DNA of 32,614 nt from Candidatus Aquidulcis sp. (GTDB lineage: Bacteria; Chloroflexota; Anaerolineae; UBA4142). The position numbers and the translations under genes are program-made. The stretch spans positions 8,228-40,841 of the forward strand of contig DYJA01000060.1 in assembly GCA_020723345.1 (NCBI GenBank), in the 5' to 3' direction. Shown one piece after another: positions 8,867-16,105 of this stretch. The notes under the pieces were generated by a model. The model saw nothing but the letters and a program-made list of their open reading frames with translations. It was not told the origin of the DNA and did no database searches. Within the stretch, counting starts at the first letter, position 1; each line of letters begins with the position of its first letter.

Positions 8867-10495
8867 CTATTGACTGATAGTTCGGATCGCCTGAGGCAGG
8901 CGCGACAGCAAATCTCCCGCGACCACACCCGCTCTTCCGATCTCTTTTTCGGCGATTTCTCCGGCGAGTCCGTGCAAGTACGCGCCTGCGATTGCCGCGT
9001 CGTACACCGACAATCCCTGCGCGAGCATCGCGACGATGGTTCCGGCAAGCACATCGCCGGTACCGGCAGTCGCAAGCGCGGGCGTCGCGAACGGGAGCAA
9101 GGTCGCGCGCGCCCTGAGCGGAGTCGAAGGGTCCGGCGACGCGACGACTGTGAACGCGCCTTTCAGCACGACAACTTGCTGCCACTGCGCCGCGAATTTT
9201 CGCGCGACGTTCACGCGGTCAGGTTGGATCGCGTCGCGCGACCAGCCGGTGAGCCGCGCCATTTCGCCGGGATGCGGCGTGAGAATCACGCGGTTCGGCG
9301 CGAGGCGCGTCCACCAGTCACCGGACTGCGCGAGCGCGTAGAGCGCGTCGGCGTCGATGACGAGATTGATGATCTCAGATTTATGATTTGTGATTTCCGC
9401 CAAGAGCGATTGAACAAAGGCAATTGTTTTTTCAGCGCGACCGAAGCCACAGCCGATCAGGAGCGCGTCGTAACCGGCAAGATAATCGGTCAAGGCGCGC
9501 GTCGCGTCGGGAACGAGCACGCCCGCGTCGTCCGGCAACGCGACAAAAGTCGTCTCGTGCAGCGCGCTCGCGACCATCGGATAAATCGCGCGCGCGAGCG
9601 CGAGCGTGACGAGTCCCGCGCCCGCGCGCGTCGCCGCGGAACCGGCGAGAAACGCCGCGCCGACATAATTCGCCGAACCGGCGCAAATCATCGCCTTGCC
9701 GAATGTGCCCTTGTGCGAATCGCGCGTGCGCGCCGGAAGCCGCGCGGCAATTTCCCGGGCCGCGGCAACCTCAAGCGCGTTGCCGCCCGCCCATTCTGCC
9801 GGAATTCCAATGTCCGCGACGACGAGTTCGCCGACCGCGTTCGCCCCGGGAAAAGCGAGTTGTCCGATTTTCGGAAACGCAAACGTCACGGTGAGATCGG
9901 CATTGAGCGCGGCAGGATCGAGCGCGCCGGTGTCGGGATTCAAGCCGGAAGGAAGGTCGATGGCGACAACCGAAGGAACCGAAGGAACTGAGGGAACTAA
10001 TGGAACGAGTTCCCCCAGTTCTTCTAGTTCCCTCATTTCGCGGCTCTTCTTCACAACCTTCAACATTTCCTTCAAGACACCCTCAATCGGTCGCGTGACG
10101 CCGGTGCCGAGAAGCGCGTCGACGATGAGATCGGTTTCGGCAAGCGATTTTTTCAGCGCGCTAAAATTGGGATCGTCTTCGGCGCGCGTCGTCGCGATCG
10201 CGCGCTCGCGGCAGAATTTCCAATTTTCGTCGTCGGGATTGTCTGCACGTTTCCAGATGTACAGCGCAACGCGCGCGCCCGCGTCGCGCAAATAGCGCGC
10301 GCAGACCAAGCCATCGCCGCCGTTGTTGCCGGGACCGACGAGCACGAGCACGCGTTTAGCGCGCGCGCCGTACCGTTCGCTCATCGCGTCGGCGACGGCT
10401 TTGCCCGCGCGTTCCATCATCAGCGCGTACGTATTTCCACTTGCATCCGCGCGCTGTTCGAGCGCGCGCATTTGATCGGCAGTCACAAGTTTCAT
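8867..10495 (-). CDS. nnrD: Bifunctional NAD(P)H-hydrate epimerase / ADP-dependent dehydratase
   Basis: This enzyme repairs damaged NADHX/NADPHX: the N-terminal YjeF_N domain (about 1-235) epimerises R- and S-forms and the C-terminal ribokinase-like domain (about 255-542) dehydrates the S-form at the cost of ADP or ATP. Motifs: GPGNNGGDG (54-62), VDALLGTG (125-132), IDLPSGLNPDTG, GTFGKAMICAGS (264-274), ILTPHPGEMARLTG (404-417), ATAGTGDVLAG (475-485). The length, 542, exceeds the usual 490-520 because of three low-complexity inserts encoded by repeats: residues 154-175 (EEL/VPS triplets), 367-375 (EITNHKSEI) and 454-462. Start: ATG 10495 with GAGG 5 nt upstream; that GAGG overlaps the stop of the preceding gene, indicating coupled translation. 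The fused form is named nnrD here; nnrE activity is carried by the N-terminal half. Confidence 0.95.
   Translation of the reverse strand: MKLVTADQMRALEQRADASGNTYALMMERAGKAVADAMSERYGARAKRVLVLVGPGNNGGDGLVCARYLRDAGARVALYIWKRADNPDDENWKFCRERAIATTRAEDDPNFSALKKSLAETDLIVDALLGTGVTRPIEGVLKEMLKVVKKSREMRELEELGELVPLVPSVPSVPSVVAIDLPSGLNPDTGALDPAALNADLTVTFAFPKIGQLAFPGANAVGELVVADIGIPAEWAGGNALEVAAAREIAARLPARTRDSHKGTFGKAMICAGSANYVGAAFLAGSAATRAGAGLVTLALARAIYPMVASALHETTFVALPDDAGVLVPDATRALTDYLAGYDALLIGCGFGRAEKTIAFVQSLLAEITNHKSEIINLVIDADALYALAQSGDWWTRLAPNRVILTPHPGEMARLTGWSRDAIQPDRVNVARKFAAQWQQVVVLKGAFTVVASPDPSTPLRARATLLPFATPALATAGTGDVLAGTIVAMLAQGLSVYDAAIAGAYLHGLAGEIAEKEIGRAGVVAGDLLSRLPQAIRTISQ
9112..9131. repeat. 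20-bp dispersed-type repeat inside nnrD
   Basis: CCCTGAGCGGAGTCGAAGGG is read on the minus strand as part of SPDPSTPLRA. I recognise this 20-mer as one that recurs in many Chloroflexota-like genomes (memory, not searched). It interrupts the strand between KGAFTVVA and the PALATAGTGD motif. Confidence 0.6.
9371..9397. repeat. GATTTNN heptanucleotide units inside nnrD
   Basis: GATCTCA-GATTTAT-GATTTGT-GATTTC has a strict 7-bp period and encodes residues 367-375 (EITNHKSEI). The same unit type appears in the untranslated leader at 18145-18204. Confidence 0.7.
9972..10034. repeat. Seven 9-bp units, four direct and three inverted, inside nnrD
   Basis: Four GAAGGAACC-like units (9972-10007) are followed by three inverted AGTTCCCTC-like units (10008-10034); GAGGGAACT (9990-9998) and AGTTCCCTC (10026-10034) are exact complements. 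The 9-bp period keeps frame and yields REL/EEL/GEL then VPL/VPS/VPS/VPS in the protein. Confidence 0.9.
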
Positions 10496-10502
10496 CGTGT
10501 CC

Positions 10503-11504
10503 TCAGAATCGTTCTGCGATAATCCGCGCGGCGAAGGTCCCAATCGGCACGAGCATCGCCGCGACGAGATTGCGGAGCGTCTCTGGATTGAAGGGCCACT
10601 CGGGCGCGTCCTGCAATCGCTTTTCGTACGCTAACCACGCGGTCACCCAGTTCGCCAGATTCGGATCGGAGCGTTCTTTGAGCCGCCGGTAATCCTCCGA
10701 AAGATGGCGGCGCACAATGTCGAGTTCGCGCCGTTTCGTTTCGACCAAGAGACAATGTGATTCGTACGTGCTGAAAAGAAAAATGAAACCACTCAAAAGA
10801 ATCAGCGCTGCGTAGATGATCGCAAAAAGCGTAATGTTACGAAAAGTCTGCGGCGGGAAGAAAAAGACGCTCAACGCAATCGCGCCGACGTACACCATCG
10901 TGATGGCAAGACTGCGGCGCGCAATCGCATTGACGAAGATCGGATGAAAGAGATCGATTTCCAATTTCTGATGGTGCAATCGCGTGAACAAGCGCGTCAC
11001 CGCGAGCGAACTGTAAATGCCCCAACTGCCCAGCGCAAACATGACGATCGATGACAACGACAGAAAGAGATTCGTCCAGCGAAATTGTTCGGGGATCATC
11101 CACTCCAAAGGCAACATGATTCCGATGGCTGCGCCGATCAACAGGGCGACGAGTTCGCCGCGTCGCGTGAGCGGCGAAATCCGCATCAGAAAACGATGGT
11201 ATTCGATTGGCTCCATGCCGATCATTTTGCGAAACGCTTCTGTCACACCGACCCTGGAGGGCTTGAGATAGAATTGCAAAAAGAAAATGTAAACGGCAAT
11301 CGTCGGCTCGAGCAAAAGCACGCGCAATAAATCGAATTCCCAGAGGCGGAAAATTATGCCGTCCAAATACGCCGCGCCGAAGAGATTGATCAGCGCGATC
11401 GCGGCAAACAAAAAGAGCACGACTCCGCGCGGCACACGCACGCGCATGAGCAAATCGTCAAACACCGTGCGCGGATAAACCCGAATGAACTCGCTCTGTT
11501 CCAT
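10503..11504 (-). CDS. Polytopic membrane protein with C-terminal cytoplasmic helix, unknown function
   Basis: A 333-residue protein I do not recognise. About six hydrophobic segments are visible: VVLFLFAAIALINLFGAAYL (near 28-48), LLLEPTIAVYIFFLQFYL, LVALLIGAAIGIMLPL, LFLSLSSIVMFALGSWGIY, LAITMVYVGAIALSVFFF and ITLFAIIYAALILLSGFIFL. After the last one comes a charged region (VETKRRELDIVRRHLSEDYRRLKER), probably a cytoplasmic helix or coiled coil, and a short amphipathic end. Start: ATG 11504 with AGAGAGG upstream gives MEQSEFIRVYPRTVF. The stop TGA overlaps the ribosome-binding site of nnrD (7 nt between genes), so the two are co-translated. The short gap on its upstream side holds a 30-bp perfect palindrome. 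Confidence 0.85.
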   Translation of the reverse strand: MEQSEFIRVYPRTVFDDLLMRVRVPRGVVLFLFAAIALINLFGAAYLDGIIFRLWEFDLLRVLLLEPTIAVYIFFLQFYLKPSRVGVTEAFRKMIGMEPIEYHRFLMRISPLTRRGELVALLIGAAIGIMLPLEWMIPEQFRWTNLFLSLSSIVMFALGSWGIYSSLAVTRLFTRLHHQKLEIDLFHPIFVNAIARRSLAITMVYVGAIALSVFFFPPQTFRNITLFAIIYAALILLSGFIFLFSTYESHCLLVETKRRELDIVRRHLSEDYRRLKERSDPNLANWVTAWLAYEKRLQDAPEWPFNPETLRNLVAAMLVPIGTFAARIIAERF

Positions 11505-11522: not shown

Positions 11523-11552
11523 GGTAGGACAAATTTGCAAATTTGTCCTACC
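11523..11552. repeat. 30-bp perfect palindrome between the 11568 and 10503 genes
   Basis: GGTAGGACAAATTTG followed directly by its exact reverse complement CAAATTTGTCCTACC, in a 63-bp gap upstream of the ribosome-binding site of the membrane-protein gene. It could be a dispersed repeat, an operator or a cruciform-forming site; there is no U-tract. Confidence 0.9.
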
Positions 11553-12986: not shown

Positions 12987-13000
12987 AGCAAAGACAAAAC

Positions 13001-13070
13001 GTGATGCGTGATACGTGTTGCGTATTGCGTGTGGCGTATGGTGTATTGCGTGTGGCGTGTGGCGTGAGAT
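13001..13070. repeat. Ten-unit GTGATGC-type heptanucleotide array
   Basis: Ten contiguous 7-bp units (GTGATGC, GTGATAC, GTGTTGC, GTATTGC, GTGTGGC, GTATGGT, GTATTGC, GTGTGGC twice, GTGAGAT). It fills the whole junction between the methyltransferase stop (13070-13072) and the DUF4129 gene start, in the inverse orientation to the array at 13799-13847 on the other side of the methyltransferase gene. Confidence 0.95.
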
Positions 13071-13798
13071 TATTTGAGTGCGGTGAGGCGATAGTACGGA
13101 ATTTCCATGCCGAGTTGGCGCGCTTGCTCTTGCAAATCCGTCGCCATTCGGCGGAACCCGGCGCGCAAATCGTCGTTGGGCAGTTTCGGCAACAGCGCGT
13201 TCAGGCGTCGCTGGAAAAAATCCAACGCGTTCGGATCGGAGATTCGTTCCGCGTGGTTCGTCCATTCCACATTTTCAAATCCGACGAGCCGGCACAACGC
13301 GCTCAGCGTGTCCGGGAAAAATTCGGCGAACGGGAATCCGCCAGCGAGTACGGTCGCGGATTTCAGGACACGCCACTTGATTGCCCAGATTTCTTGCGCG
13401 GGTATGACCGCTTCGTTGATTGGAAACTCCTCTTCGATGAACAATCGCCCACCTGGTTTCAACACATCCCAAAATTTTCGCAGCGCGAGTACCGCCGCGC
13501 CTTCATTTGTGTTGACGGCGCACAACGTGTAATTGCAGACGATTCGATCAATCGAATTGTCCGCGACACCTGCCAACTCGCACGCGCCCGTGCGGACAAA
13601 TTCGACGCGAACATTCTTGGCGCGAAATTCATCGCGCAATTTCTGGAAATGCGCGTCCGAAATATCGGTCACGACCAACGTCGCATCAGCATAGCGCGAC
13701 AACAATTCAACCAGCCGCCGCGTCGCATCGCCGCGCCCGCTGCCGACTTCCAAAACAATTTTGCCCGCTAAATCTTCCCGCTCAATGTCCATTTGCAT
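13070..13798 (-). CDS. Class I SAM-dependent methyltransferase
   Basis: A 242-residue protein with SAM-binding motif I LEVGSGRGD (16-24), an acidic end of beta-2 (LVVTDIS), VDNSIDRIVCNYTLCAVN-type motif around beta-4, and the post-motif LRKFWDVLKPGGRLFIEEEF. These are typical of Methyltransf_11/25-type enzymes; the acceptor is unknown. Only about 15 residues precede motif I, short for the family, so the N-terminus may be reduced. Start ATG 13798 (or 13792) directly abuts the heptanucleotide array at 13799-13847, leaving no Shine-Dalgarno. Both ends of the gene are bordered by arrays in opposite orientation, and it interrupts an otherwise standard moxR-DUF58-DUF4129 cluster, so it may be an inserted gene (inference). 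Confidence 0.88.
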   Translation of the reverse strand: MQMDIEREDLAGKIVLEVGSGRGDATRRLVELLSRYADATLVVTDISDAHFQKLRDEFRAKNVRVEFVRTGACELAGVADNSIDRIVCNYTLCAVNTNEGAAVLALRKFWDVLKPGGRLFIEEEFPINEAVIPAQEIWAIKWRVLKSATVLAGGFPFAEFFPDTLSALCRLVGFENVEWTNHAERISDPNALDFFQRRLNALLPKLPNDDLRAGFRRMATDLQEQARQLGMEIPYYRLTALK

Positions 13799-13847
13799 TT
13801 CACGCAACACGCAACACGTTTCACGTATCACGCATCACGTTTCACTC
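13799..13847. repeat. Seven-unit heptanucleotide array across the DUF58/methyltransferase junction
   Basis: Units TTCACGC, AACACGC, AACACGT, TTCACGT, ATCACGC, ATCACGT, TTCACTC on the + strand. On the transcribed strand it encodes the last residues (VKRDA) and the TGA stop (13828-13830) of the DUF58 gene and then runs straight to the methyltransferase ATG. Confidence 0.95.
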
Positions 13848-15018: not shown

Positions 15019-15025
15019 AAGGCAG

Positions 15026-15085
15026 AAGGATGAAGGATGAAGGATGAGGGATGAAGGAATCTTTCATCCTTCATCCTTCATCCTT
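15026..15085. repeat. Heptanucleotide hairpin: AAGGATG units followed by inverted CATCCTT units
   Basis: AAGGATG three times plus AGGGATG and AAGGAAT (15026-15060), then CATCCTT three times (15065-15085), forming a long near-perfect hairpin. It takes up almost the whole moxR-DUF58 gap (15019-15091). No U-tract on either side. Confidence 0.92.
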
Positions 15086-16048: not shown

Positions 16049-16056
16049 AAGTCCTC

Positions 16057-16098
16057 GTGATGTGTGATACGTGATGCGTGTTGCGTGATGCGTGATGC
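16057..16098. repeat. Six-unit GTGATGC heptanucleotide array in the moxR leader
   Basis: GTGATGT, GTGATAC, GTGATGC, GTGTTGC, GTGATGC, GTGATGC, ending 9 nt upstream of the moxR start codon on the other strand. It would be transcribed as part of the 5' untranslated leader. Confidence 0.95.
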
Positions 16099-16105
16099 GA
16101 ATGGA

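Follow-up and report, generated by a model that had tools for sequence, protein, structure and literature searches.

The stretch of 32,614 nucleotides analysed here (the window) is located on contig C90 of the 6.34-Mb draft genome of Candidatus Aquidulcis sp. (G000), and contains the gene nnrD for a bifunctional NAD(P)H-hydrate epimerase/ADP-dependent dehydratase. Inside this gene, a folded-back array of short repeats encodes part of a loop of the epimerase domain. The open reading frame (ORF) spans positions 8867–10543, with the ATG at 10495 corresponding to ORF residue 17. Two curated cut-offs are passed, by TIGR00196 (202.7 bits versus 129.85) and by TIGR00197 (139.3 versus 88.6). Both NnrD domains are present, and the protein also matches YjeF_N and Carb_kinase.

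Read in the forward-strand register, the array consists of the direct 9-bp units AAGGAACCG (9973), AAGGAACTG (9982), AGGGAACTA (9991) and ATGGAACGA (10000), followed by the inverted units GTTCCCCCA (10009), GTTCTTCTA (10018) and GTTCCCTCA (10027). The preliminary description had reported seven units in frame in nnrD, four direct and three inverted; these are real, and their limits, 9973–10035, differ by at most one base from the 9972–10034 given there. In the repeat search, the two arms (9972–9998 and 10008–10034) are 78% complementary, and in RNA folding none of 200 shuffles is as stable as the hairpin they form. The array is in frame and forms residues 171–191, 21 residues with a three-residue period, located after DALLGTG...GVLKEML and ahead of VVAIDLPSGL. 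When codons were shuffled 20,000 times over the whole gene, and another 20,000 times within the loop only, no shuffle attained the period score of the array. The AlphaFold model of NnrD is poor (mean predicted local distance difference test score, pLDDT, 53.5; predicted template modelling score, pTM, 0.43), with residues 170–187 below a pLDDT of 50, which is compatible with a loop and proves little; its quality is too low to support surface exposure or a fold search.

Orthologs of nnrD were found in 55 of the 60 relatives searched, the named ones being metagenome-assembled genomes of uncultured Anaerolineae/Chloroflexi; all genomes of the order are draft assemblies. Loop lengths were taken from 28 of 30 loci, leaving out L025 and L031, which were not oriented. 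From DALLG to (A/V)(I/V)DLPSG, 27 of the 28 orthologs have 49 to 66 residues and one (G019) has 35; in nine of the 11 members of the window's family, the stretch from DALLG to DLPSG measures 50–54 residues. Counted from anchor to anchor, the array site (site 1) has 32 amino acids in the window, 29–42 in 15 of 17 members (the remaining two have 15 and 46), with or without an array. In the alignment with Thermotoga TM0922 (PDB entry 2ax3), a 21-residue gap is present where the array sits, before VVAIDLPSG. The earlier claim that the array adds 21 residues is thus upheld against the Thermotoga protein and fails against the relatives; a net insertion of this size is ruled out by their loop lengths and is kept for the comparison with TM0922 only. 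Because the loops of the relatives are equally long, the long nnrD loop is old and common to the Anaerolineae, and the 9-bp array is its current content and no extension.

What fills the loop differs among the relatives. By an array score that is hardly ever attained in codon shuffles (99% quantile of 1020 shuffles, 12), ten of the 17 orthologs of the order have an array at site 1, belonging to ten unit families. The loops contain the 8-bp units ACACGGAG (G001), CCCAATCA (G002, G007 and G010) and CCAACTAT (G009), the unit AGACCAGG (G008), a CT-rich 8-bp tract (G016) and 9-bp units of the TTCCCTCA types (G000, G012 and G016); the 9-bp unit TTCCCTCAT is also among the fillers, as are others. The resulting peptides are wholly different among genomes (RELEELGELVPLVPSVPS, ETRRHGDTERLVTLSP, NHPITQLVPTRSLAHT), and conservation at the array site is 0.02 versus 0.43 for the gene. 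A conserved loop peptide is ruled out by the ortholog alignment. The preliminary description had proposed a repeat family tolerated in a weakly conserved loop, and had named conservation of the same residues in distant NnrD proteins as the observation that would speak against it. No aligned ortholog conserves the array residues and the same 9-bp unit recurs genome-wide, in agreement with the proposal. Outside the order, one of 13 nnrD genes of other Anaerolineae orders has a period-9 tract above the score (in G037, where locus L025 was taken on the other strand), at a position that fits the nnrD loop. The ortholog of G007 (L017) contains one in-frame TAG, either a sequencing error or decay.

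Two more repeats are present in the gene. At site 2, before LVIDADAL, where the array of the window is weak, strong 7-bp arrays are found in five relatives, with units differing among them. The PSTPLR insertion, encoded by the near-palindrome CCCTGAGCGGAGTCGAAGGG, is also present in G003 at the same place and missing in 14 of the 16 orthologs compared. The same 20-bp sequence occurs at a further eight places in 400 kb of G000, three of them genic, with none for the reversed control, and in G002 a similar sequence lies within the arrays of both GuaA and an amidohydrolase, adding eight residues to each.

The changing loops are not confined to nnrD. Genes were chosen in which G000 has an array or matches the 9-bp unit, and their orthologs were aligned across the 20 genomes of the order, giving ten array sites in seven alignments, every one of them less conserved than its whole gene. 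Different units occupy one site in different genomes in nnrD, the amidohydrolase (PF01979), GuaA, the linker of an ATP-sulfurylase and an S-adenosylmethionine (SAM) hydrolase. The amidohydrolase loop is 15–17 residues long in 15 of 17 genomes and 23 in two; heptad or octad arrays of eight unit families (ACGCAAC, AATTCGC, GAGTGGC, CAACAGT, AAATCAG, AAGGACG, GACGAAC, AGTCTCC and others) are found in 13 of the 17, and conservation is 0.04 at the site versus 0.63 for the gene. In GuaA, a 19-residue loop precedes VWMSHGD in 17 of 19 members. The loop carries perfect heptads in G000, with length unchanged, and is longer by seven residues (21 nucleotides) in G001 and by eight in G002, the latter from a different dispersed repeat. 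Loop length is therefore nearly constant in both GuaA and the amidohydrolase. The SAM hydroxide adenosyltransferase loop has three scored arrays in ten members, and more heptads are seen by eye. The linker between ATP-sulfurylase and phosphodiesterase contains arrays in 11 of 15 members, from 11 unit families, and that of G000 has direct units in its first half and inverted ones in its second. Period-9 pattern tracts of the ATP-sulfurylase and NFACT genes remain below the array score, other sites of both genes having passed it.

This linker site is the junction of a fusion: in the window's family the ATP-sulfurylase is joined to a type I phosphodiesterase (L113:423-3062, minus strand, and orthologs). 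In the sister family the two match as separate pieces in G014, G016, G017, G018 and G019 and as a single piece in G015. Downstream of the amidohydrolase gene, 419–476 bp beyond its 3' end, CCCAATCA arrays occur in five genomes (G001:C9:16399, G007:C530:10815, G014:C133:66321, G016:C276:2136 and G019:C445:41851); because of this recurrence, part of the intergenic arrays may date far back, or this spacer may be a repeated target.

This order is rich in arrays with periods of 7–10 bp, and most of the other Anaerolineae sampled have fewer. G000, sampled in 20 stretches totalling 400 kb, has 18.8 per 100 kb, versus 0.5 in Markov sequence. The density is 12.5–52.5 in six other members of the family, 2.5–40 in four of the sister family and 0–15 in eight other Anaerolineae (samples of 20–40 kb each), with 0–0.8 in the Markov control. 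Five genomes (1.44 Mb, 1210 genes from a codon-based caller that has some starts and small genes wrong) were surveyed for the location of the arrays, which is mainly intergenic (85.1 per 100 kb, versus 5.4 in genes); 41 of the 1210 genes have an internal array. Periods of 7, 8, 9 and 10 bp account for 56, 9, 2 and 0 genic arrays, with zero in codon shuffles, and for 106, 37, 15 and 13 intergenic ones. The period is a multiple of three in 16 of 81 genic and 19 of 175 intergenic arrays (p 0.077). Heptads dominate within genes, and therefore a frame-preserving period of 9 is not what admits arrays into them. The earlier view of period 9 as the favoured, frame-keeping choice in genes does not survive these counts, which also rule it out as the key to frame retention.

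An inverted partner within 70 bp is found for 77 of 186 arrays, versus seven with the control unit. Since just 17 of 89 genic arrays have such a partner, versus 98 of 163 intergenic ones, the nnrD array belongs to a type that is in the minority within genes and typical of intergenic arrays, such as that at 15025–15085, which has the same architecture of direct and inverted units. A conserved mRNA hairpin is ruled out, as fold-back is infrequent among genic arrays and the relatives have other sequences in their nnrD loops, whose folds were computed without shuffle controls. The features of the window are collected in the table. A perfect 30-bp palindrome, GGTAGGACAAATTTG/CAAATTTGTCCTACC, is located between two genes of the window (11523–11552). 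Elsewhere, a gene for a PMT_2-family membrane glycosyltransferase (L059:3833-5890, minus strand) contains five 7-bp arrays in one reading frame.

Table. Repeat features of nnrD and of the neighbouring intergenic regions of the window (positions in the window).
Feature	Position	Strand	Remarks
nnrD, bifunctional NAD(P)H-hydrate epimerase/ADP-dependent dehydratase, intact	8867..10495	-	TIGR00196, TIGR00197, YjeF_N, Carb_kinase
Dispersed 20-bp near-palindrome CCCTGAGCGGAGTCGAAGGG in nnrD	9112..9131	-	True 6-residue insertion PSTPLR
Weak 7-bp array (GATTTAT) at the second nnrD site, preceding LVIDADAL	9378..9396	-	Tandem Repeats Finder
Complete nnrD fold-back array	9972..10034	-	mRNA hairpin -44.2 kcal/mol, z -5.7
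Direct 9-bp units, four, NNGGAACNN on + strand	9973..10008	-	Coding-strand 3' half, VP(L/S)VPS...
Inverted 9-bp units, three, GTTCNNCNA on + strand	10009..10035	-	Coding-strand 5' half, RELEELGEL
Intergenic 7-bp array CGTGTGG/CGTGATG	13000..13066		Tandem-repeat search
7-bp array, TCACGCA family, two-gene junction	13798..13845		Tandem-repeat search
Intergenic fold-back array, 7-bp (GAAGGAT)n/(ATCCTTC)n	15025..15085		Hairpin -42.1 kcal/mol, z -7.7
Intergenic 7-bp array CGTGATG	16056..16099		Tandem-repeat search

The unit of the nnrD array is itself dispersed. At up to two mismatches it is found at 60 other places of the genome, versus 20 for the reversed pattern. The exact pattern GGGAAMTRAGGGAAMT occurs 16 times in G000, 18 in G003, 65 in G008, 28 in G012, 12 in G013, 24 in G016 and 50 in G019, at one or two places in G009 and G017 and nowhere in 11 of the 20 genomes; the reversed pattern is absent throughout. 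The nnrD loops that contain the 9-bp unit (G000, G012, G013, G016 and G019) all belong to the seven unit-rich genomes, for which the hypergeometric probability, calculated over the 17 genomes whose nnrD loop could be read, is 21/6188 = 0.0034. On a tree of GuaA and of nnrD minus its loop, the distribution of the unit in nnrD needs five changes. Across nine loci, units are shared within a genome at one mismatch 11 times, versus 4.3 expected (5 of 3000 permutations).

Taken together, the nnrD array is probably a local copy from an order-wide population of arrays, copied or template-switched into permissive loops, homogenised there and filtered by selection. Dispensable parts of proteins appear to be rewritten continually by a repeat process acting throughout the genome. 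We infer that during replication or repair a nascent strand would anneal by a few bases to another array, or fold back on itself, copy several units and then return to its original template, after which slippage would homogenise the tract. Selection would remove products with a frame shift, a stop or damage to folded parts, and products in length-tolerant loops would survive, serving as loop residues until the next rewriting. Copying from the genome's own pool of units is favoured, not proven; slippage in place surely acts too. The nnrD array behaves as a tolerated by-product of a process at the DNA level, with no benefit to the protein demonstrable. A further-reaching version is put forward tentatively: a continuing process would replace enzyme loops wholesale, cassette-like, from the current pool of hairpin arrays, conserving length and frame and leaving a visible recent tract in a few percent of the genes (the 41 of 1210).

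Several results weigh against copying between loci. The nnrD loops of G013 and G019 are below the array score and were read by eye, and without both the association with unit-rich genomes becomes 35/680 = 0.05. Of five independent tree pairs, 4.4 go with abundance and none is opposed, too few to reach 0.05. At two mismatches, the excess of shared units is gone (21 versus 17.2; 492 of 3000 permutations). A sampled test of whether 21 in-gene arrays match the pool of their own genome is non-significant (5822 of 20,000), own exceeding others in 15 of the 21. For CCCAATCA, the three carriers are all among the 12 positive genomes out of 17 (0.32), making the test uninformative, and in G001, whose nnrD contains ACACGGAG, an exact copy of this unit is found at a single further place. 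No donor tract or recent event was caught among the genomes compared, and no polymerase, transposase or other enzyme was linked to the arrays, transposase families not having been searched for.

This near-uniqueness of ACACGGAG to nnrD in G001 fits instead with pure slippage in place, by which a chance seed would expand in a relaxed loop, and drift and concerted evolution within each array would generate the unit families without any transfer from other loci. The unit families of one loop are often one or two steps apart (AATTCGC, AATCCGC, AATCCGA and ATTCGCC in the amidohydrolase), the GuaA loops of several genomes already hold degenerate CCAATCTC codons as a possible seed, and the seven additional residues of GuaA in G001 equal three heptads. 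As a full account it is nevertheless rather unlikely, leaving unexplained the inverted halves, the units common to unrelated loci of one genome and the tie between the 9-bp unit in nnrD and its genome-wide abundance. The fold-back architecture, and the patchy 9-bp family with no exact copy in 11 of 20 genomes and 12–65 in seven, might be expected of a mobile hairpin element, similar to repetitive extragenic palindromic (REP) sequences, miniature inverted-repeat transposable elements (MITEs) or Rickettsia palindromic elements, that inserts in genes and survives in loops alone; the distinct 20-bp sequence does give a true insertion in nnrD. However, array-bearing loops are no longer than array-free ones in GuaA (G001 excepted) and the amidohydrolase, the units at one site vary among genomes, and no common element ends are seen (no transposase search having been made), which renders this origin improbable.

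Selection on the loop peptide or on the mRNA hairpin, for translation pausing or as a disordered linker, would account for the strong hairpin in nnrD and for the maintenance of a long loop in 27 of 28 orthologs, and the length of the nnrD loop may indeed be conserved. Yet neither loop sequence nor hairpin is, because peptides differ entirely between genomes and so few genic arrays have an inverted partner; we regard such selection as very improbable. That all genomes of the order are drafts could suggest an artefact of assembly or gene calling. This is hardly credible, since the arrays come from metagenome-assembled genomes of different projects, lie in intact frames of conserved enzymes and are near zero in codon-shuffle controls.

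The arrays resemble the short tandemly repeated repetitive (STRR) sequences of cyanobacteria, which are short tandem repeats of the same kind, and are an unusual, loop-rewriting form, inside genes, of the heptanucleotide type of repeat. Short tandem repeats of bacteria are described with units of 7–9 nucleotides, heptamers being the commonest, dispersed and mostly intergenic, examples being TAACTGA of Beggiatoaceae and GGGAATC of Xanthomonas and Nostoc (PMC4679880, PMC4692102). The present arrays share with these heptanucleotide repeats the short tandem unit and the many dispersed, mainly intergenic copies beyond chance; they differ in the many unit families per genome, the frequent inverted partner and the rewriting of loops of conserved enzymes. 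A reported tendency of units in coding regions towards multiples of three (PMC4679880) does not hold here, where period 7 dominates within genes. Borg elements contain fast-evolving tandem repeats of independent origins in and between genes, those in genes giving regions that are largely disordered and all having units divisible by three (PMC9879509). Compared with those perfect, head-to-tail repeats, the nnrD array has a 9-bp unit but is imperfect and folded back, and the other in-gene arrays described here are mostly of 7 or 8 bp.

Rickettsia palindromic elements are single, longer elements of conserved sequence that are inserted in frame, with a net gain of length, in non-core parts of housekeeping genes. 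The nnrD array is likewise palindromic and in frame within an ORF, but there is no net lengthening relative to close orthologs and no long consensus, with ten unit families at this loop. The array is not a single palindromic element, because the units in this loop vary from genome to genome, and the likeness drawn in the preliminary description is not supported in this respect; a closer match in the same gene is CCCTGAGCGGAGTCGAAGGG, a true insertion. PARCELs (palindromic amphipathic repeat coding elements) are dyad-symmetric, protein-encoding repeats with a 25-residue amphipathic motif, in ORFs without assigned functions (PMC2996958); the nnrD array shares the symmetry and the coding but lacks the motif. 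Template switching at inverted repeats creates reverse-complement copies and multi-residue protein changes; the cases described concern genes of yeast and RNA genes rather than arrays of tandem units in the protein loops of bacteria (PMC8604942, PMC8794818). A word search of the open-licence literature returned no description of such arrays in Chloroflexota.

Protein loops are usually considered to diverge through point mutations and small insertions and deletions. A whole bacterial order seems to alter loops by swaps of short tandem tracts at fixed places, some of nearly fixed length, as in GMP synthase. As a caution, rapid change in loops and unusual low-complexity peptides may carry no adaptive meaning in genomes of this kind. 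The arrays offer natural replicate experiments on loop tolerance and a case in which template switching can be tested as an origin of protein sequence, and they mark a strong mutational process in uncultured Chloroflexota.
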